Assembly: GCF_000230735.2 (NCBI RefSeq)
Contig: NC_019962.1
Span: 3,534,001 to 3,598,000, forward strand
Reading direction: 5' to 3'
From: Natrinema pellirubrum DSM 15624
GTDB lineage: Archaea; Halobacteriota; Halobacteria; Halobacteriales; Natrialbaceae
Length of the DNA: 64,000 nt
In this document: positions 16,277 through 62,982 of the stretch, piece by piece
Layout: the number at the start of each line of letters is the position of its first letter
Position numbering within the stretch: position 1 is the stretch's first letter
Made by a program: the position numbers and the translations under genes
Notes under the pieces: generated by a model
What the model was told of the DNA's origin: nothing
What the model saw: the letters and a program-made list of their open reading frames with translations, nothing else
Database searches by the model: none

Positions 16277-16349
16277 GCCCGGGTGGTGTAGTGGCCCATC
16301 ATACGACCCTGTCACGGTCGTGACGCGGGTTCAAATCCCGCCTCGGGCG
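16277..16349 (+). tRNA. tRNA-Asp(GTC), copy 2
   Basis: Identical over all 73 nt to the copy at 15828, exactly 449 bp away. The promoter element aaacccttaatac (about 16238-16250) and the downstream 30 bp are also conserved, so the repeat is a tandem duplication of a whole transcription unit. Confidence 0.97.
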
Positions 16350-16605
16350 CTTTTCCGATCTCAATTCCCACGAGTTGTCAGCTTGCTGGCCGTGAGGAGT
16401 CCGAAATCGGCAGAGCGGACCTCGGAATTTGAAGCAGAGAGTTCCTTCGCCGTGACCGTGGTTTAAATCCCGTCTCGGGCGTTTTCTTGGTTTCAATTCT
16501 CGAGCGAGAAGCGCCGCGATGGGCGAAGACTGCTTTCGACTAGTCGAAGTAGGCCTGTATTTATATCATTCCCCACTCATTTCAGAAACGAACGGTCGAA
16601 AACGA

Positions 16606-50695: not shown

Positions 50696-50768
50696 GGGAT
50701 CGTGGGTTAGCTTGGTATACTTCGGGCCTTGGGTGCCCGTGACCCCGGTTCAAATCCGGGCGATCCCA
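50696..50768 (+). tRNA. tRNA-Pro(TGG)
   Basis: 73 nt, no intron. Acceptor GGGATCG/CGATCCC, anticodon loop CTTGGGT in stem CGGGC/GCCCG, T arm CCCGG-TTCAAAT-CCGGG, discriminator A73. A TATA-like gctttatg lies about 28 bp upstream (50662-50671). Confidence 0.95.
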
Positions 50769-50769
50769 T

Positions 50770-50804
50770 ATTGCTGCTGCGAGCAAATCGCGAGCAGCAG
50801 CAAT
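50770..50804 (+). repeat. Hairpin directly after tRNA-Pro
   Basis: ATTGCTGCTGC (50770-50780) pairs with GCAGCAGCAAT (50794-50804): an 11-bp perfect stem with a 13-nt loop, starting 2 nt after the tRNA 3' end. No T-tract. Possibly a 3'-processing or termination structure. Confidence 0.5.
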
Positions 50805-50812
50805 TGGAACGA

Positions 50813-50881
50813 GCCCGGATTTGAACGAGAGAACGGCGAGCGATAGCGAGCCGTTCGCGTGGTTCAAATCCGGGCGATCCC
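50813..50881 (+). repeat. Inverted and direct copies of the tRNA-Pro 3' end
   Basis: GCCCGGATTTGAAC (50813-50826) is the reverse complement of GTTCAAATCCGGGC (50862-50875), giving a 14-bp stem around an inner AACGGC/GCCGTT stem. The right arm extends to 50881 as GGTTCAAATCCGGGCGATCCC, which equals the tRNA-Pro 3' end (50747-50767) over 21 nt. Direct-repeat pair of the kind left by tRNA-site integration, but with an inverted copy too. Confidence 0.75.
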
Positions 50882-50908: not shown

Positions 50909-51210
50909 GTGGCTACAACATCGGATTCGAAGGTTCTGCGCGAAGGGCAGGTTCTCGAGCGTGACTCGAGAAAACCGTGTGCCCTCGAGTACGACGAGAA
51001 CGGTGACCCGCGCCGGATGCGGATCGAGACGATCCGCTCGCAATTGAACGCCGATAGCTCGAGACCGTCGCGACGATCGCCAGTGAGGCCCTCGAGAAGT
51101 GGTCGACGTCGAGGAACGATCCGGCGGCCCTCCACGGCGTCGAACTGACTTGGAAGACGCCGGGCGGCGGGACGGAGACCGGAGTCGTCAGTGCTGTTGC
51201 GGATCGGTGA
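50909..51210 (+). pseudogene. Frameshifted small gene after tRNA-Pro
   Basis: GTG 50909 opens MATTSDSKVLREGQVLE up to about 51055 (IETIRSQLNAD). A second frame then reads ETVATIASEALEKWSTS to the stop at 51208-51210. Both halves are protein-like and joined by one frameshift near 51050-51061. Unknown family. Its place beside the tRNA repeat suggests a remnant of an inserted element. Confidence 0.4.
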
Positions 51211-51665
51211 ACCGGCCGCGTAGTGGCACCACTCTCGAGATCGATCAGTTCTGTAACGGAGGTTGACTCCCACGGTTTCGTCTGCAACTCCGGTTGTGGT
51301 CAGTGGCTCGAGGGCGGGGGTCAGCACCGCGATCGTGCCGCAACGCCGGCGGGGTCGTTTCGCGCTTCGCGCGAACGCCCCCTTGGCGGGTGTCGCCAAG
51401 GCGACAGCGCGCTTCTTTCTTCTTTGCAGGATCCAGTTGAAACACATGAAACGGAGGTCAGTGAACTCTGTAGATTAGGGTACCAACAATCCCCGTTTTG
51501 GTTTCTTTTATATCCAGGAAGTAGTATATGCCCGCTAGTGACATATAGACAATATTTTTGATGCACGATTCCGCAATTCTACCTTAGTGAAATATGAACT
51601 GTGTCTCCGGTCAAAGTATATTTAAGATAAGAACTCTCAGTTACACTTAGCGCACAGAAGAAACT
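51211..51665. other. Boundary from GC-rich to AT-rich DNA with promoter of the clamp gene
   Basis: 455 bp without a gene. GC-rich until about 51440, with gene-like debris, then abruptly AT-rich. A TATA-like gtatatttaag (about 51616-51626) lies 40-50 bp before ATG 51666. A half-site CAGTTAC (51639-51645) resembles part of the inverted repeat found before the operon at the other end. Confidence 0.5.
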
Positions 51666-52472
51666 ATGCCTGAACAAATTGGAAGTGAAGATAGTCTATA
51701 TGTGGAGATTGGTTCTGACGTTTTAGATGCAGTAGTTAATCCCCCCGTCGAATTAACAAAGGAAAAGAAAGCCATCTTCCGCTGGACTGAAGACAAATTG
51801 GTCGTGGGTGCGATGGATGGCGCAAGAGTGATGAGTGTTACACAAACCATCGAATCTGATGAGTTTGATATATACCAGGTCGATCTAGAGGATGAAGAAC
51901 TGCCAATAGGCGTAGCCTGCGGAAAAGTGGCGAATCTCCTTGAAGAAGCAGATAGTAACGATACTATCAAGTTGGAATTATGCAACGATACCAATAAGTT
52001 GGATCTTAGCTTCGGTGAGGTGAGTTACTCTTTGGCCCCTAAAGAAATATCTTCAATCAATGAACCTCCTCAAAATGAGATCGATCATGAAATAACGGTG
52101 TGGACCCATAGTGGTGTTTTTAGAAGATCAAACAAGATTCTTAGTATGGCTGATGAAGAGATAGTTTTCAATTTCACAGACGATGGGGTATACGTATCAG
52201 CATCAGGTGACGCTGATTCTGCTGAGATAAATTTGGAAGCCTCTGATGAAGATAATCAAGACGGAGCTGACATCGTTTTCGATGAAAAAAAGAAGGAACT
52301 CCAAGCAAGATTTTCCTCAGACTATATTGAGTATATCCCCAAGTTCACTCCTAATGGCCTTTTCAAATCGAACTTCGATTCTAAAAACCCTTTAGAAATT
52401 AATACAAGACGAGTAGAAGAGAAGATATTGACCCAAATACGGTTGGCTCAGCGGTTACAACCGGAAGGGTAA
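51666..52472 (+). CDS. Divergent PCNA-like sliding clamp
   Basis: 268 aa. Residue patterns follow archaeal PCNA along its whole length: PIGVACGKVANLLEEADSND aligns with the clamp's first-domain end, LDLSFGEVSYSLAPKEI with the loop after it, VWTHSGVFRRSNKILSMADE with the start of domain 2, ASGDADSAEINLE with its core strand, and the C-terminal IRLAQRLQPEG with the L-A-P-R-I end. About 20 residues longer than chromosomal PCNA and very divergent. AT-rich codon usage shows transfer, perhaps from a virus. The 3' end overlaps the convergent membrane-protein gene by 74 bp. A PCNA-derived decoy, sensor or phage factor is possible. Confidence 0.75.
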   Translation: MPEQIGSEDSLYVEIGSDVLDAVVNPPVELTKEKKAIFRWTEDKLVVGAMDGARVMSVTQTIESDEFDIYQVDLEDEELPIGVACGKVANLLEEADSNDTIKLELCNDTNKLDLSFGEVSYSLAPKEISSINEPPQNEIDHEITVWTHSGVFRRSNKILSMADEEIVFNFTDDGVYVSASGDADSAEINLEASDEDNQDGADIVFDEKKKELQARFSSDYIEYIPKFTPNGLFKSNFDSKNPLEINTRRVEEKILTQIRLAQRLQPEG

Positions 52473-54204
52473 CTGCTATTAAAACTCCGATTGTTAGTGA
52501 GATAGCAACTAAAGTTGAAGAACTTGGAAGACAATCATGTAGCGAGGAATAATAATCGAGTTCATTGTGACGATAGGAAATAATGATCGATACCGGTAAT
52601 GTTGCTATTGTAACCAAAAATGGAACTGAGAGCGCGGAATAGGCAAAAAGCGAAAAAGTACCTATACCTATCCAACTCAAACAGAGAATGTGATATGCAT
52701 ACTCTAGTCGCTGTTTTGCCCAATCCACCCTATCATTAGCAAACTGAATGTAAGACTCATGTCGTGATTCAAATCGAGAAACATCAACCAATTCCTTGGC
52801 ACCGACATTTGAGGCTAATTCAGAATATAATTCAGCGTCTTCTTTCCCCTCTCGTACCACTCTACTGAGTTCGTTTATTCTCTCTTGAGCAGTTGGAAAA
52901 TAGAACAATAGAAGTCCAGAAATTGCGACTACAGTAAATGGAGCAGCAGTATCGACCGTCCCCTCGATCAGAATCAAAAAGGCATTCGTTGCAATCACTC
53001 CAAATAGGGCTGCAACTACTTTTTGAATTTCTGTGGTTAGATTTACCGTAGATTCAGATAGGGTGTTTGTCACCCCTCCAATGAAAATCTGTGCGTCTTG
53101 AACTGCAGTGCTTAATTCTTCGAAATTTCCTTGAATGGCCCCCTCTTCCAAAGAATTATAGTATTTACATATATTCTGGTCTTTGTTTATTAAGTCAGTG
53201 AAATCCTCGCAATGTTCGACTATAGATTGGTGCCAGAGTTCCCTGTACACCTGCTTATTCCCTCTTTGGGAAAATGATTCAGAAAACCTGAATAATCTAC
53301 TAATATCGTAATTATCTTGTTGGGTGTCGATGCGGTCTGTGAATACCCCCTTTGTCGACTCAATCTCAAACGAGATTGCATTCCCTGTTGTCTCATAACT
53401 GTCCGAAATGGTAGATACTATTGAATAGAGAAACGGAGCTGTAAGGATAGATCGAGCCTCTTTAGAATCGAATATCATTGGAGGTATAGTATCCGAACTG
53501 ATCTCAGAGGCCCACTCCATGTGAGATTGGTACTCATCGATCTTCTCATTAATATTTTCTATCATATCAGCTTCGTCTATTGTGCTAAACACAAGCGTTT
53601 CATCATGTGCAATAGTATCTTTAGAAAGGAAAATGAAAACTGGATAGGACTCATCAAAAAAGGTGTGGGAAGCATCAGATACACCTTCTTGTCTCACCCA
53701 TTCTTGCAAAGATTGAGGACTTACCCAGAGGTATACATCTATTGTCGATTCATCCCATTCAGACAAGTATTCTCCTAAGAGCGATTTAGAGAATGGTTCT
53801 TTATCTGCTGCTACAGAGAAAACAAAATAGTAATTCTCATCACAGGGTCCATTGGAGAGTAATTCAGCTAAGTCAGAATATCGTTCCTCATCGAGGAGAT
53901 ATGGAATCTGTCTGTTAAAATCCCTGATCTTGCTTGGTAGTTCTTCCTCCTCAAACGACTTCTGAAAGCCAGTTGAGGTAAGATCGAGTATATCTAGATC
54001 TGCTCTATCATTCTGAAATATAAGCTTGATAGAACCGAACGAGAAAAAATCTGGTTGAGAATCAGCGAAGGATAAGATCCGACCTACTAACTCATCATCA
54101 GTGTTAGAAAATTCTAGATTTAGTTCTATCCGACCCAATGTTTCTTGGCAATCGTGTGTATAGATTATCTGTCTTAGATCTTCTGCAAACTCATGTGCAG
54201 TCAT
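52399..54204 (-). CDS. Large protein with C-terminal multi-span membrane domain
   Basis: 601 aa, no recognised family. Residues 1-390 are soluble, acidic alpha/beta; 391-601 has about six hydrophobic segments (about 396-414, 421-437, 504-523, 526-544, 563-583, 586-601) with a charged stretch between the second and third. No signal peptide. Starts inside the stop of the NdpA-like gene (ATGA, 4-bp overlap), so the two are coupled. The layout of soluble domain plus membrane part resembles abortive defence effectors; that is inference only. AT-rich codon use. Confidence 0.7.
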   Translation of the reverse strand: MTAHEFAEDLRQIIYTHDCQETLGRIELNLEFSNTDDELVGRILSFADSQPDFFSFGSIKLIFQNDRADLDILDLTSTGFQKSFEEEELPSKIRDFNRQIPYLLDEERYSDLAELLSNGPCDENYYFVFSVAADKEPFSKSLLGEYLSEWDESTIDVYLWVSPQSLQEWVRQEGVSDASHTFFDESYPVFIFLSKDTIAHDETLVFSTIDEADMIENINEKIDEYQSHMEWASEISSDTIPPMIFDSKEARSILTAPFLYSIVSTISDSYETTGNAISFEIESTKGVFTDRIDTQQDNYDISRLFRFSESFSQRGNKQVYRELWHQSIVEHCEDFTDLINKDQNICKYYNSLEEGAIQGNFEELSTAVQDAQIFIGGVTNTLSESTVNLTTEIQKVVAALFGVIATNAFLILIEGTVDTAAPFTVVAISGLLLFYFPTAQERINELSRVVREGKEDAELYSELASNVGAKELVDVSRFESRHESYIQFANDRVDWAKQRLEYAYHILCLSWIGIGTFSLFAYSALSVPFLVTIATLPVSIIISYRHNELDYYSSLHDCLPSSSTLVAISLTIGVLIAVTLPVVTAEPTVFGSISSLLLVLY

Positions 54205-54971
54205 GATATGATATCATCAATCGAATCAAAGGATTCAATTCCCTTCAGGACTTCGCGATATTCGCCCCGACGATTATCATAGAACCTTATTGTTGGCTCA
54301 TCTCCTGAAATCACCAAATGGTATCCCTCTTCACTTTCCACTAAATGAACTCGATCTCTTCGAAGTATCTCACCAATCTCTATTTTCACTTCTCGTCCGC
54401 CTATTTTAATAGAAACCTCTGCTTCCTCAGTAATATCGTCGATATTATCCACTATTTCATCAAACTCCTCAGTCGATTCTGCCTCACTCAATTCATTTTC
54501 CTCTTCTTCAAACATTTCGGAAAGGATCTCCTCAGATGTAGGATTAGGCTTTAGATGGAGGTATTGGAACCAGTGTTTGGGGTATCTACTGCTACTCCCT
54601 TGTTTTTGATAGAGACATACTTCGTCCCACCTACATTCCCCATCTGGAGTTATTCTCGGGTAGAGGATCCCTTTCTTCAAATCCCCCTTAATAACCTCGT
54701 TGAGTTCATTAAGTATATCTTCGTCATCTGGCTCGTAGATATCATCAACAAATGGCGCTTTGATTATTCCTACCTGTTGATCACCATGTGAGTGGAAACG
54801 CGTGACCAGAAGTAACCCGGACTGTGCATAATCTGTCTGTAAATACCAACTAGCCAGTGTCTTAAGATTTTCTTTAATATTGTCCCCTTCAACGGTTTGG
54901 GCAAGCAAATCTTTAGTACTGACTGCTTTGACGCCACGTGGCTGTTTTGCTTGCTCTGAAAACTTATGCAC
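54201..54971 (-). CDS. C-terminal part of an IS-interrupted NdpA-like protein
   Basis: 256 aa if started at GTG 54971. The true reading frame continues upstream (about 9 codons, 54972-54999) to the edge of an IS66 insertion and resumes in 56650-56818; removing the IS gives one 319-aa frame. A middle region SGLLLVTRFHSHGDQQVGIIK and KKGILYPRI...EVCLYQKQ resembles the nucleoid-associated NdpA (NA37) family; this match is weak. Acidic linker of about 40 residues and a small C-terminal beta domain. Overlaps the membrane gene by 4 bp. The remaining frame has lost its first 63 residues and is probably inactive. Confidence 0.6.
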   Translation of the reverse strand: MHKFSEQAKQPRGVKAVSTKDLLAQTVEGDNIKENLKTLASWYLQTDYAQSGLLLVTRFHSHGDQQVGIIKAPFVDDIYEPDDEDILNELNEVIKGDLKKGILYPRITPDGECRWDEVCLYQKQGSSSRYPKHWFQYLHLKPNPTSEEILSEMFEEEENELSEAESTEEFDEIVDNIDDITEEAEVSIKIGGREVKIEIGEILRRDRVHLVESEEGYHLVISGDEPTIRFYDNRRGEYREVLKGIESFDSIDDIIS

Positions 54972-54999
54972 TCGAGCGCTCTTCTGGCTTAGAAAATCT

Positions 55000-56649
55000 G
55001 TACGTGTTTAGCCCCGTCTGATTTCGTCACTGTCTCGTAGGTGGTGGCCTGTGACAGATACATGGTCTGTCAGCAGGGAGTCAGTCTACATTCTCAGGGA
55101 TGGTCTCCGCTGCCCGGAGACCATCCCGTCGGCCCTGCTGTCGTCGTTTCGAGGTGGAATCGATGAGCTGGGACGATCTCTCCAAGGACGAACTCCTCTC
55201 GCGGTTTCTCCAGATGGAGGAGCGAATCGACGAGCTGGAAGAGAAGATTGCCCAGAAGGACAAGCGGATCGAGGAACAGAACGAACGGATCGAAGAGCAG
55301 CAAGAGCGGATCGAAGAGCAGCAAGAGCGGATCGAAGAACTCGAAACACGTCTCCGGAAGTACGAGAATCCACACACTCCACCCAGTAAGCGACGGTCGG
55401 GGACCGACGAGTCCCCGACCTCGCAGGACGACGAAGACGACGATGTCCGAACTGATGGTGGTACTCCCGGTCGAAAGGACGGTCACAACCCGGAGTGGCG
55501 CTCTCCGCCCGATCCTGATGAAGAAATCGAGGTCACCTCTGACTGTTGTCCCGAGTGTGGCGACCACTTCGACGAGTCGGTGGGCGTCAGCCCCCGACTC
55601 GTCGAGGAAGTCCCGGATCCACAGCCACCAGAAGTCACCCAGTACAACCGACACCGCTACCAATGCGACTCCTGTGGAACTGAGACGGTTGCGACTCACC
55701 CCGACTGCCCCGATGAGGGGCAGTTCGGGGTGAACGTCATCGCGCAATCTGCCCTGTCACGGTACGATCACCGCCTTCCCTACCGGAAAATCACGGACCG
55801 CTTCGAGCAACTTCACGGACTCGAACTCTCAGGTGCATCCGCGTGGCACGCGACCGAGCGCGCTGCGCGCGCCGGTCGCTGTGAGTACGAGCAGATCCGT
55901 CGAGAGATTCAGGAGGCTGAAATCGTCCACGTTGACGAAACCGGCATCAAGCGTGACGGTGACCAAGCGTGGATCTGGACGTTTCGGACGGACGAGCATA
56001 CGCTGTACGCGGTCAGAGAGAGTCGTGGGAGTGATGTTCCCGCGGAAGTCCTTGGCGAGGACTTCGCGGGAACGGTCATCTGTGATGGGTGGACGGCGTA
56101 TCCAGCGTTCAGCAGTACGCTTCAGCGGTGCTGGGCACATCTTCTCCGGGAGGCTGAAGACGTTGCTAGTGACCACGAGGAGGCAGAACCGGTGTACCGG
56201 TATCTCAAGCAGATGTTCGTCGGTCTCCAGTCGTGGCTGGAGACCGACCCAGATCCTCGTGCGAGAGCACAGATGCATCGAGCGTGTCAGGACGGCCTCA
56301 GATCGCTCGTTGAGCGGTCAGTGACCGACGAACCAGTGGCAACACTCCTCGGGAAGATCGAAGGTGGACTCGACCACTGGCTCACCTTCGTCGGTGAGCC
56401 AGCGGTCTCCCCGACGAACAATGCCGCAGAAAACGCCCTTCGTGAACCTGTTGTTCTCCGGAAAATCATCGGAACACTCCGGAACGACCGTGGCATGTTC
56501 GTTCACGAGACGATCTTGTCCCTGCTGGCGACGTGGCGCCAGCAGGGACGCAACCCATACGAGGAACTTACGCGGGTTGTCCACGACAACGAAATGATCT
56601 CACGAGAGCAGACTGTGCCGGTTGTTGAGACCTCGGGGTAAACACGTAC
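55000..56649 (+). mobile_element. IS66-family insertion sequence
   Basis: 1650 bp. Ends carry the inverted repeat GTACGTGTTTA (55000-55010 and complement at 56639-56649), extended imperfectly by CCCCG. Flanked by an 8-bp direct repeat gaaaatct (54992-54999 and 56650-56657), the IS66-typical duplication length. It splits the NdpA-like gene on the opposite strand. Confidence 0.92.
55163..56641 (+). CDS. IS66-family transposase
   Basis: 492 aa from ATG 55163; an upstream in-frame start at 55100 is in the IS leader. N-terminal coiled coil with tandem R-I-E-E-Q-Q-E heptads (21-bp DNA repeat at about 55288-55340), a zinc-type CPECG and CDSCG pair, then the DDE core: D in HVDETG, D in VICDGWTAYPA, E in NNAAENALR. 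Halophilic IS66 family; only one gene, with no TnpA/TnpB helper genes. Intact, so the element may be active. Confidence 0.93.
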   Translation: MSWDDLSKDELLSRFLQMEERIDELEEKIAQKDKRIEEQNERIEEQQERIEEQQERIEELETRLRKYENPHTPPSKRRSGTDESPTSQDDEDDDVRTDGGTPGRKDGHNPEWRSPPDPDEEIEVTSDCCPECGDHFDESVGVSPRLVEEVPDPQPPEVTQYNRHRYQCDSCGTETVATHPDCPDEGQFGVNVIAQSALSRYDHRLPYRKITDRFEQLHGLELSGASAWHATERAARAGRCEYEQIRREIQEAEIVHVDETGIKRDGDQAWIWTFRTDEHTLYAVRESRGSDVPAEVLGEDFAGTVICDGWTAYPAFSSTLQRCWAHLLREAEDVASDHEEAEPVYRYLKQMFVGLQSWLETDPDPRARAQMHRACQDGLRSLVERSVTDEPVATLLGKIEGGLDHWLTFVGEPAVSPTNNAAENALREPVVLRKIIGTLRNDRGMFVHETILSLLATWRQQGRNPYEELTRVVHDNEMISREQTVPVVETSG

Positions 56650-59463: not shown

Positions 59464-62400
59464 ATGGCGCAAGCGGGAAACTCCGAACTCGTCGACTCTT
59501 TCGAGCAGTTCTTCCGGAACTACTACGACAGCGAGATCAAGCAGCTTGCCCAGCAGTACCCCAACGAGCAGCGGTCGCTGCACGTCGACTGGCAGGACCT
59601 CTACCGGTTCGATCCCGATCTTGCCGACGACTTCATCAACCAGCCCGAACAGCTGCAACGATACGCCGAGGAGGCGCTGCGGCTGTACGACCTCCCGATC
59701 GACGTGAGCCTCGGGCAGGCCCACGTCCGCGTGCGGAACCTCCCGGAAACGGAGTCGCCCGAGATCCGCGAGATCCGCGCCCGCGATATGAACTCCCTCG
59801 TGCAGGTCCACGGCATCGTCCGCAAGGCCACCGACGTCCGCCCGAAGATCGAAGAGGCCGCCTTCGAGTGCCAGCTCTGTGGCACCCTCACGCGGGTCCC
59901 CCAGTCAAGCGGCGACTTCCAGGAACCCCACGAATGTCAGGGCTGTGAGCGGCAGGGTCCCTTCCGCGTGAACTTCGACCAGTCCGAGTTCGTCGACTCC
60001 CAGAAGCTCCGCGTCCAGGAGAGTCCCGAGGGACTCCGCGGCGGCGAGACGCCACAGGCCCTCGATATCAACATCGAGGACGACATCACCGGCGAGGTTA
60101 CCCCCGGCGACCACGTCTCCGCGACCGGCGTTCTCCGCCTCGAGCAACAGGGCGACCAGCAGGACCCGTCGCCCGTCTTCGACTTCTACATGGAGGGCAT
60201 GTCCGTCGAGATCGACGAAGAGCAGTTCGAGGACATGGATATTACCGGCGAGGACAAAGAGGAGATCGTCCGTCTCTCGAGTTCCGAAGACATCTACGAG
60301 AAGATGGTCGCCTCTATCGCCCCCTCGATCTACGGCTACGATCAGGAGAAGCTCTCGATGATCCTCCAGCTGTTTTCGGGCGTCACGAAGCAGTTACCCG
60401 ATGGCTCGCGGATCCGGGGCGACCTCCATATGCTTCTGATCGGGGACCCCGGGACGGGGAAGTGCGTCCGCGGCGATACGAAGGTCACGCTCGCGGACGG
60501 CCGTGACGTGCCTATCCGCGACCTTGTCGAATCGAACCTCGACAATCCGAAACCGATCGATGACGGCTGGTACGACGAGATCGATATCGACGTCCCCTCC
60601 TTACAGGAAAACGGGGAGATCGATCCACAGCGTGCGACAAAGGTCTGGAAACGAGAGGCTCCCGACCGGATGTATCGACTCCGGACTGCAGGCGGGCGGG
60701 AACTCGAGGTGACACCGTCGCATCCCCTGTTCGTCCAACAGGACGGACGATTCACGCCGATCGTTGCTGATGAACTCAACGAGGGACAGTTTATCGCAAC
60801 CCCACGAAGTGTCGAGACGAACAGCGACGATACCCTTGAAGTTGATTTCCGGCGATCCAAGTCCCGAAATGCGGTGCAGCTTGATTTGCCCGAGAAATGG
60901 ACTCCATCACTGGCACGTCTAATCGGATACATCGTTGCAGAAGGATACGTCGAGCAGCGAGACGATCAGACAGGCTTCGTTTCGATTACGAACAACGATA
61001 GAGAAGTGTTAGATGACGCAGCGAATGCACTAGCGGACTTGGGGCTGAATGTTACTGAACGGGACCCGCATGAGTCCAAGGACGCACGCGAACTGCTCTG
61101 TTCAGCGGGCGAATTCGTAAGCTTCCTCGACACATTAGCAGAACAGCTTCTACAGTCCTCGGACAATCAATGCGTTCCCGATCCGATTTTCCGGACCACC
61201 GAGTCGATCAGATCCGAATTCCTCAAAGCGTTCCTCGAAGGAGAAGGGCACGTCTCGGAATCTCAACGAGAGATAACTGCTGCCTCGACGAGTCGTGAAC
61301 TCCTCGAAAACGTGAGGACGCTGCTTCTCTCACTGGGGATTCGTTCACAGCTTCACGACCGACAGAACGGGAGTTACCGGCTCAGAATAAGCGGCGATGA
61401 ATTCGAGAAATACGTTTCCAATATCGGGTTCGTAACCCAGCGGAAACAGCGGACCGCGCGACAGTACGCTGACACGGACGGGAACACCAATCTCGACATC
61501 ATCCCGAATCTCGGAACGGAGCTTCGACGAATTCGTGAAGCGCTCTCGATCACACAGGCCGAATGTGGGCTCCCCCGGTCGACGTACCAGCATTACGAAC
61601 GGGGATCACGAAATCCGAGCCGAGACAGTCTCCGCCGGGTCGTTTCGGCTTTCGAAGATGCGTTACCGAAAAGTGAACATCCGAACGAGGGCGCAGTTCT
61701 GACTGACGGAGGAACAGTAGCAAAGGACGTCACTGCTCTCAAGCAGTTCGCCGACGGAGATATCTGCTGGGAACGGATCGAGTCCATCGACGAAGTCGAT
61801 CCCGATTACGACTGGGTATACGACCTCGAGGTCGACGGGACCCACAACTACATCTCGAACGGCGTCGTTTCGCACAACTCTCAGATGCTCGCATACATCG
61901 AGAACATCGCGCCGCGGGCCGTCTACACCTCCGGGAAGGGGAGCAGTTCGGCAGGTCTCACCGCCGCCGCCGTTCGCGACGACTTCGGCGACGGCCAGCA
62001 GTGGAGCCTCGAGGCCGGCGCGCTCGTCCTCGCCGATCAGGGGATCGCGGCCATCGACGAACTCGACAAGATGCGACCGGAAGACCGGTCGGCCATGCAC
62101 GAGGCCTTAGAGCAACAGAAGATCTCCGTCTCGAAGGCCGGCATCAACGCCACGCTGAAGTCCCGGTGTTCGCTGCTGGGTGCGGCAAACCCCAAGTACG
62201 GCCGGTTCGACCAGTACGAACCGATCAGCGAGCAGATCGACCTCGAGCCGGCCCTGATCTCGCGGTTCGACCTGATCTTTACCGTGACGGACACGCCCGA
62301 CGAGGAGAAAGACCGCAACCTCGCGGAACACATCATCACCACCAACTACGCCGGCGAGTTGACCACCCAGCGCGAGGAGATGTCCAGTCTCGAGGTCAGT

Positions 62401-62982
62401 CAGGGAGAGATCGACGAGATGACCGACCAGGTCGATCCGGAGATCGACGCCGAACTCCTGCGGAAATACATCGCCTACGCCAAGCAGAACTGCCACCCGC
62501 GGATGACCGAGGCGGCCCGCAACGCGATCCGGGATTTCTACGTCGATCTGCGCTCGAAAGGGACCGACGAGGACGCCGCGGTGCCGGTCACGGCCCGAAA
62601 GCTCGAGGCGCTCGTGCGGCTCTCGGAGGCCAGCGCCCGCGTGCGGCTCTCGGATACGGTCGAAGAGGCGGACGCCGAGCGGGTCATCGAGATCGTCCGC
62701 TCGTGTCTACAAGACGTCGGCGTCGACCCCGAGACCGGCGAGTTCGACGCTGACATCGTCGAAGCCGGGACCTCGAAATCCCAGCGCGATCGGATCAAGA
62801 ACCTCAAACAGCTCATCGGGGACATCGAAGAGGAGTACGACGACGGCGCGCCGGTCGACATCGTCATGGAGCGGGCCGAGGAGATCGGCATGGACCAATC
62901 AAAGGCCGAACACGAGATCGACAAGCTCAAACAGAAAGGCGAGGTCTACGAACCGAGTACGAATACGCTCCGGACGACGTGA
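59464..62982 (+). CDS. mcm: MCM replicative helicase containing an intein
   Basis: 1172 aa as encoded, 700 aa after splicing, the normal haloarchaeal length. N-terminal domain with a zinc motif (CQLC ... CQGC), an AAA+ core with Walker A GDPGTGK interrupted after K333 by the intein (C334 is its first residue), Walker B AAIDELDKM, sensor 1 in LLGAANPKYG, Arg finger SRFDLIF, and a C-terminal winged helix. It unwinds origins. Leaderless: TATA atttataccc (59431-59440) about 25-30 bp before the ATG. The intein sits at the conserved MCM-a site. Confidence 0.96.
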   Translation: MAQAGNSELVDSFEQFFRNYYDSEIKQLAQQYPNEQRSLHVDWQDLYRFDPDLADDFINQPEQLQRYAEEALRLYDLPIDVSLGQAHVRVRNLPETESPEIREIRARDMNSLVQVHGIVRKATDVRPKIEEAAFECQLCGTLTRVPQSSGDFQEPHECQGCERQGPFRVNFDQSEFVDSQKLRVQESPEGLRGGETPQALDINIEDDITGEVTPGDHVSATGVLRLEQQGDQQDPSPVFDFYMEGMSVEIDEEQFEDMDITGEDKEEIVRLSSSEDIYEKMVASIAPSIYGYDQEKLSMILQLFSGVTKQLPDGSRIRGDLHMLLIGDPGTGKCVRGDTKVTLADGRDVPIRDLVESNLDNPKPIDDGWYDEIDIDVPSLQENGEIDPQRATKVWKREAPDRMYRLRTAGGRELEVTPSHPLFVQQDGRFTPIVADELNEGQFIATPRSVETNSDDTLEVDFRRSKSRNAVQLDLPEKWTPSLARLIGYIVAEGYVEQRDDQTGFVSITNNDREVLDDAANALADLGLNVTERDPHESKDARELLCSAGEFVSFLDTLAEQLLQSSDNQCVPDPIFRTTESIRSEFLKAFLEGEGHVSESQREITAASTSRELLENVRTLLLSLGIRSQLHDRQNGSYRLRISGDEFEKYVSNIGFVTQRKQRTARQYADTDGNTNLDIIPNLGTELRRIREALSITQAECGLPRSTYQHYERGSRNPSRDSLRRVVSAFEDALPKSEHPNEGAVLTDGGTVAKDVTALKQFADGDICWERIESIDEVDPDYDWVYDLEVDGTHNYISNGVVSHNSQMLAYIENIAPRAVYTSGKGSSSAGLTAAAVRDDFGDGQQWSLEAGALVLADQGIAAIDELDKMRPEDRSAMHEALEQQKISVSKAGINATLKSRCSLLGAANPKYGRFDQYEPISEQIDLEPALISRFDLIFTVTDTPDEEKDRNLAEHIITTNYAGELTTQREEMSSLEVSQGEIDEMTDQVDPEIDAELLRKYIAYAKQNCHPRMTEAARNAIRDFYVDLRSKGTDEDAAVPVTARKLEALVRLSEASARVRLSDTVEEADAERVIEIVRSCLQDVGVDPETGEFDADIVEAGTSKSQRDRIKNLKQLIGDIEEEYDDGAPVDIVMERAEEIGMDQSKAEHEIDKLKQKGEVYEPSTNTLRTT
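60463..61878 (+). other. Intein in MCM with DOD endonuclease and XRE-like HTH
   Basis: 472 residues. Block A CVRGDTKVTLADG, block B GGRELEVTPSHPLF (T-x-x-H), block F/G YDLEVDGTHNYISNGVVSHN ending H-N, with extein Ser as the next residue. Two DOD motifs: LIGYIVAEGYV (about 60919-60954) and FLKAFLEGEGHV (about 61219-61254). Intein residues about 347-401 resemble an XRE-type HTH (TELRRIREALSITQAECGLP). Codons are less GC-rich than in the exteins. Confidence 0.9.

Follow-up and report, generated by a model that had tools for sequence, protein, structure and literature searches.

The tRNA-Pro locus and its repeat unit

The window analysed here, a stretch of 64,000 nucleotides of Natrinema pellirubrum DSM 15624 (contig NC_019962.1, positions 3,534,001 to 3,598,000), contains a tRNA-Pro(TGG) gene that is followed by two palindromic structures, the second of which ends in a copy of the tRNA 3' end. 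Counted from the first letter of the window, the locus comprises the following features:

50696..50768, forward strand: tRNA-Pro(TGG), predicted by ARAGORN and matching Rfam RF00005
50748-50768, forward strand: A1, the copied segment of the tRNA itself (tRNA-Pro nt 53-73)
50770..50804, forward strand: h1, an 11-bp hairpin abutting the 3' end of tRNA-Pro (arms 50770-50780 and 50794-50804)
50813..50826, reverse strand: A', the inverted T loop plus 3' strand of the T stem (nt 53-66), from a repeat search; 14 of 14 nt complementary to 50862-50875
50827..50860, forward strand: core, a quasi-palindromic cassette between the T-loop arms
50861..50881, forward strand: A2, an exact copy of tRNA-Pro nt 52-72, from a repeat search

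The hairpin and the 14-bp stem that the initial annotation had described directly behind tRNA-Pro are both present, the latter as a perfect pairing of 50813-50826 with 50862-50875. Its statement that the right arm of this stem is a 21-nt copy of the tRNA end is likewise confirmed, 50861-50881 being identical over 21 nt to 50747-50767 and hence a direct duplication of the tRNA 3' segment. Two details can be refined: no more than 14 of these 21 nt are paired, and the copy covers nt 52-72, with a T and not an A at nt 73. The 15-mer GGTTCAAATCCGGGC from this A2 occurs twice in the whole genome. Between A1 and A2 lie approximately 93 bp that consist of palindromes only, with no integrated element between the copies, and the T-loop arms GATTTGAA...TTCAAATC face each other in inverted orientation and so constitute terminal inverted repeats of the kind by which transposable elements and MITEs are recognised. 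The stretch 50769-50881 folds far better than its shuffled versions (z = -10.1 as RNA and -8.9 as DNA), with none of 200 shuffles equally good.

The AT-rich island that had been placed about 600 bp away is indeed located at about this distance, as the G+C content drops from 0.52 (51001-52000) to approximately 0.40 (52001-55000). It appears to be unrelated to the tRNA-Pro unit, and nothing links the two. The island gene at 51666-52472 matches the N- and C-terminal domains of PCNA (Pfam), and hence encodes a divergent sliding-clamp-like protein; it adjoins two AT-rich ORFs, one of them without any Pfam match. The island region also includes an ORF for an IS66-family transposase (55100-56641; Pfam), and a 1172-aa ORF at 59464-62982 has a translation that resembles an MCM helicase split by an intein-like insert.

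Repeat units at the tRNA genes of Halobacteria

The first evidence for a repeat family came from 100 relatives that were searched with the tRNA-Pro region. The core with its arms (50817-50871) recurs on its own elsewhere, for example, with 98 % identity in the same genome (G000:C1:3628760-3628814), where it sits just after tRNA-Arg(TCT) (3628847-3628921). When the downstream DNA was inspected for 42 of the 45 tRNA matches of the Natrinema genome, the order of hairpin, inverted T-arm, core, and tRNA-end copy proved to be common to many of them. Of the 42 tRNAs, 17 were followed by a direct copy, 12 nt or longer, of their own 3' terminus, and in all 17 cases the own tRNA ranked first among the 42. 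Under a uniform rule (16 or more identical positions among the 21 of nt 53-73, within 300 nt), a copy was present downstream of 18 of the 44 tRNAs of this genome and upstream of none (0/44). The same rule gave 14 of 31 tRNAs (control 0) and 11 of 29 tRNAs (control 2) in a second and a third genome, both chosen irrespective of units; in the third, adjacent tRNA-Asp genes probably explain some of both counts. With high confidence, the tRNA-Pro unit is therefore described as a member of a family and not as a one-off. The units have the order tRNA(1-52)-A-h1-A'-core-A, in which A stands for tRNA nt 53-73 and A' for the T-loop half of A in inverted form, h1 and core both being quasi-palindromic.

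A second unit is found within the window itself, downstream of the second copy of tRNA-Asp(GTC):

16277..16349, forward strand: tRNA-Asp(GTC), second copy in the window
16424..16433, reverse strand: A' of the tRNA-Asp unit, GGAATTTGAA
16461..16481, forward strand: A2 of the tRNA-Asp unit, 19 of 21 nt identical to tRNA-Asp nt 53-73

Besides single units, tandem units are common: in a set of 198 tRNAs with A2, which was selected for having units, 53 were double and 7 triple. One locus (L144, genome G004), where tRNA-Arg(CCT) is followed by three near-identical tandem units, is a candidate for studying unit gain and loss. Elsewhere in the Natrinema genome, tblastn located an integrase fragment shortly downstream of tRNA-Ala(GGC) (L063, 1679-1966), which is likely the remnant of another integrated element.

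The A2 copy follows the sequence of the tRNA next to which it lies. Across 118 units, its identity to the own tRNA amounts to 0.87-1.00 at nt 53-73, and the edges are sharp, with identity being lost at nt 51-52 and past nt 73 (0.29 at nt 51, 0.44 at nt 74). In the same units, the pairing of A' amounts to at least 0.9 for nt 54-61, declines over nt 62-65, and is at background beyond nt 66. Since the detection of these 118 units had itself made use of nt 53-73, the comparison was redone on units selected by a T-loop pattern, which leaves nt 62-73 free to vary. Here, 58 of 67 units agreed with their own tRNA in 11 or all 12 of these positions (nt 62-73), as compared to typically 5 of 12 for other tRNAs. 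Among the matches listed for the named genomes, 70 of 84 have a same-strand tRNA upstream at a distance of up to 500 nt, and 53 of the 70 agree with this tRNA at 10 or 11 of 11 positions (nt 63-73). The remaining matches comprise five at contig edges and nine without such a tRNA; of the latter, several are the opposite strand of a unit, and two (L275 and L279) are the right ends of integrated elements.

Of 292 Halobacteria genomes, 284 contain the palindromic T-loop pair GATTNGAA...GTTCNAATC, while a reversed-pattern control matched a single one (1/292). In a phylum-wide draw, the pair was found in 52 of the 53 genomes of the order, whereas outside Halobacteria 21 of the 241 genomes of the phylum matched, mostly with single unrelated matches and at the chance-like level set by the reversed control (12/241). 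The units are thus near-universal in, and restricted to, Halobacteria. A collection of named genomes yielded at least 120 matching stretches, and all 80 loci among the matches listed belong to Halobacteria. A pattern match is not always a unit, as became apparent from the 30 first matches of the 292-genome scan, which were taken as loci: most lie 33-285 nt past a same-strand tRNA, two fall within tRNA-Ser genes, and six (L112, L125, L126, L130, L135, and L139) lack an upstream tRNA on the same strand within the locus; in one of these six, the adjacency was lost through an element inserted between tRNA and unit. Random decay without a homologous structure in relatives, which the initial annotation had named as a possible outcome, is refuted by the tRNA-Pro orthologs (see the next section), by the presence of the pattern in nearly all genomes of the class, and by the matching of A2 to its own tRNA.

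As a separate observation, several bacterial-looking viral contigs (L097, L098, L099, L103, L104, L107, and L109) carry a different long palindrome, GGATTTGAACC...GGTTCAAATCC, that is built from tRNA-like sequence and is repeated with altered loops.

Palindromes and cores: RNA or DNA

Selected RNA stems tolerate G-U but not A-C oppositions, while the two are equivalent in palindromes of DNA. Oppositions of G-T and A-C numbered 32:29 in h1, 23:39 in the arms (nt 53 excluded), and 14:26 in the core, as compared to 91:9 in a control set of 179 distinct tRNAs at these loci (acceptor and T stems), all of these sets being phylogenetically non-independent. As A2 offers about twice as many A/C as G/T sites, the ratio in the arms represents parity and not a preference for A-C. 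First counts with a loose stem finder had given 67:71 and 62:44. A stricter pooled count that includes nt 53 gave 140:75, which is largely owed to one core position next to nt 53 (44 there in the 118 units). This pooled count leans towards RNA, and so does covariation in the hairpin h1. The latter is kept as an ortholog in the tRNA-Pro genes of Natrialbaceae with some compensatory changes; in 14 orthologs, of nested relatedness, four pairs have changed on both sides at 94.2 % pairing. Taken together, the palindromes do not appear to be maintained as RNA of the sense strand, since G-T and A-C are nearly equal in their stems and differ by 91 to 9 in those of the tRNAs.

These counts bear on the reading that the unit is an RNA element, namely the 3' trailer of the pre-tRNA, in which A2 would aid or regulate 3' processing or A' would switch between pairing with the tRNA and with A2. 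The position of the units 3' of the tRNA in the same orientation (in most cases tested), the strong RNA folding, the covariation of h1 among tRNA-Pro orthologs, and the fixed polarity of the core (66 forward and 7 reversed relative to the tRNA among 118 units, by a loose motif) would all fit such a role. We nonetheless consider it unlikely, given that G-U shows no excess over A-C in h1, arms, or core while the ratio in tRNA stems is ten to one, that changes in A2 at nt 66-72 do not favour pairing with the 5' strand of the tRNA, and that the units match no Rfam family except tRNA (in ten loci searched, only tRNA was matched at the units, and RNase P as well as a weak cspA match were obtained elsewhere in the loci). 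In the minimum-energy fold of tRNA plus trailer, the 5' strand of the tRNA pairs with A2. Models of RNA competition, in which A' switches between tRNA and A2 or A2 completes an alternative tRNA, were rejected on the same grounds of A2 changes at nt 66-72 and G-T not exceeding A-C. The idea of a transcribed, tRNA-like bait for processing enzymes, put forward in the initial annotation, is not supported either: besides the lack of a G-U excess in its stems, the predicted fold buries the T loop in a duplex.

The cores behave differently from the arms that surround them. Within one genome, the same core occurs with different arms at tRNA-Pro and tRNA-Arg(TCT), and likewise at tRNA-Arg(CCT) and tRNA-Val(CAC). 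Conversely, 29 tRNA-Pro orthologs contain at least four kinds of core between GGATTTGAA and GGTTCAAATCC, with h1 being recognisably the same in many of them. About 12 of these orthologs keep A2 whole or slightly changed, and the others show a decayed unit, h1 alone, or nothing. The cores thus behave as cassettes, and where they differ between species at tRNA-Pro, the replacement is bounded exactly by the T-loop arms.

The finding of near-identical cores at different tRNAs, with arms that match each locus, is what one would expect from a small mobile hairpin that has T-loop-like ends, spreads among tRNA genes, and duplicates the tRNA end upon insertion. The flanking direct copies indeed look like a target duplication, and the occurrence among tRNA-Pro orthologs is patchy. 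However, ordinary transposition leaves the match of the arms to each local tRNA unexplained, and no autonomous relative that carries the core together with a transposase or integrase was found in viral contigs or in plasmid and phage records: of 17 viral-contig matches to the T-loop pattern, none looks haloarchaeal or is of the unit kind, and the plasmid and phage records gave only short, mostly tRNA-like matches. We therefore regard such an element as improbable.

The equality of G-T and A-C is also compatible with a by-product of replication, in which template switching at palindromes would repeatedly generate a neutral, tandem inverted duplication of the tRNA end and A2 would resemble the tRNA because the units are young or recopied. 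A tandem inverted duplication would alternate just as A-h1-A'-core-A does, and the double and triple arrays point in the same direction. Such an origin is further supported by a weak remnant of an inverted acceptor upstream of A', where the match to the own tRNA exceeds the mean of other tRNAs in 70 of 109 cases (p = 5e-5, a value that ignores relatedness). Set against this are the restriction to one class although tRNA genes are universal, the sharing of the same cores by unrelated tRNAs, and the persistence of the tRNA-Pro h1 across genera. Moreover, direct repeats around palindromes are usually lost quickly. We consider such a neutral by-product unlikely.

Integrated elements, a possible role, and known systems

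Integrating elements were found at the same tRNA genes. In three genomes (G016, G045, and G007), tRNA-Pro and the resident unit are separated by an element whose right end, a short copy of the tRNA terminus, is directly followed by h1 and the unit. A tyrosine integrase gene sits beside the right end in G016 and G007 as well as in L126 (tRNA-Val type; with Pfam phage integrase domains), L275 (tRNA-Ala type), and L279 (tRNA-Pro type); as the last three loci were found via their units, the association of integrase elements and units arises in part from selection. All five integrase-bearing right ends that were found are located at the real tRNA site and none at A2. In one element family, left ends abut the tRNA in six genomes and A2 in four (G004, G015, G027, and G032, in which the homologous left end follows A2 and not the tRNA). 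G007 harbours an integrase-bearing element between tRNA and unit, and G004 has the same left end after A2. The simplest reading is that members of one element family have targeted the tRNA end in some cases and its A2 copy in others. The elements that abut A2 gave no integrase match, and a search of 20 kb revealed no right end for three of them, which would also suit the alternative that the unit was inserted between the tRNA and an older element instead of the element having landed at A2. The G007 element at tRNA-Pro (L140, 1-10053, and L141, 1-3960), with its integrase at the right end, has ORFs whose translations resemble those of a pleolipovirus or plasmid. In several relatives, the sequence behind tRNA-Pro could be read as a clean empty site but turned out to be the left end of an integrated element, and these cases were discarded as empty sites.

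The T stem-loop and the 3' end of tRNAs are described as regions used by integrases in the portion of the source available (PMC8371274). The copied segment, reaching from the T loop to the 3' end, is of this kind, and to this extent the suggestion of the initial annotation that it is a trace of integrase target duplication is supported, also in that one element family is found at either the tRNA or the copy. The support is partial, as nothing is integrated between the copies and the units are persistent, each tracking its own tRNA. The related view that each unit is a scar left behind when a larger element was deleted from the tRNA site at which it had integrated likewise draws on the resemblance to integrase sites and on real elements integrating at the same tRNAs. 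It strikes us as very improbable: size and order of the units are uniform at many tRNAs in nearly all genomes, the element ends in L164, L141, L126, L275, and L279 have no T-loop palindrome on their own side, and scars would be expected to drift, yet A2 does not.

We tentatively favour the explanation that the unit is a Halobacteria-wide DNA repeat at tRNA 3' ends that is usable as a second attachment or exchange site; its role as a recombination site at the DNA level is inferred with moderate to low confidence. A2 would hold the segment from the T loop to the 3' end that serves as attB of tRNA-targeting tyrosine recombinases, and because of this attB-like segment, integrating elements could land in A2 instead of the tRNA. 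Exchange of cores between tRNA loci may have its boundary at the T-loop palindrome. The identity of A2 with its own tRNA would be preserved by recombination or template switching among A1, A', and A2, filtered by selection for a functional tRNA gene, and the same processes may add or remove units. A gain for the host, with A2 as a decoy that spares the tRNA, and a selfish or neutral unit would both be compatible. What counts against this explanation is that the elements abutting A2 gave no integrase match, that the integrase-bearing right ends all lie at the real tRNA site, that the covariation of h1 and the pooled G-T count lean towards RNA, and that copies of 21 bp are short for ordinary gene conversion. 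A fuller version, which is more doubtful but conceivable, holds that the units are a class-wide haloarchaeal feature of about two fifths of the tRNA genes, in which A2 is continually rewritten to the local tRNA, cores are swapped as T-loop-bounded cassettes, and A2 acts as a spare attachment site that draws viruses and plasmids off the tRNA.

tRNA genes are classic landing sites of viruses and plasmids, and, to our knowledge, little is known about how hosts shape these sites. The units represent a natural and testable system for studying how very short repeats evolve in concert, how cassettes are exchanged at a boundary of 8-10 bp, and how attachment sites may act as decoys. We found no description of them in the open-licence literature or in Rfam, although earlier notice in subscription papers is possible. 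Among known repeats, the rtT repeats of the E. coli tyrT operon are located 3' of a tRNA and include its 3' end, but they are direct repeats confined to one operon of one lineage, unlike the units, which are palindromic and occur at many tRNAs across a whole archaeal class.

The t-elements of Haloferax are tRNA-like structures that are cut by tRNase Z and RNase P, and, as far as the accessible part of their description goes, they share with the units the presence of tRNA-like sequence in haloarchaea (PMC4326828). The unit copy differs in comprising nt 53-73 only, in lying in a long duplex instead of a tRNA-like fold, and in lacking the signature of RNA pairing. PATE and SMR of Haloquadratum are likewise short, palindrome-bearing repeats without coding capacity; in contrast to the units, the part of the source available mentions neither a link of these repeats to tRNA genes nor any tRNA sequence in them (PMC3119063). 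In Methanopyrus kandleri (M. kandleri), a palindrome CGTTA(N)9TAACG lies 3' of many tRNA genes and was reported to be specific to this organism, and in the available part of its description it has no tRNA copy, in contrast to the units (PMC5217627). As judged from these partial descriptions, none of the nearest published systems has the anatomy of the units, which are apparently undescribed.

The closest parallel is provided by the attachment sites of tyrosine recombinases in Halobacteria (SNJ2-type and relatives), which also duplicate a 3' segment of the tRNA downstream of the gene, and elements bearing a Pfam phage integrase integrate at the very tRNAs that carry units. In contrast to such sites, the units enclose no element between their copies, possess an additional inverted copy and a palindromic core, occur at many tRNAs of a genome at once as well as in arrays, and are near-universal in the class. 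Partial tRNA copies within approximately 130 nt of haloarchaeal tRNAs should thus not automatically be taken as scars of integrated elements.
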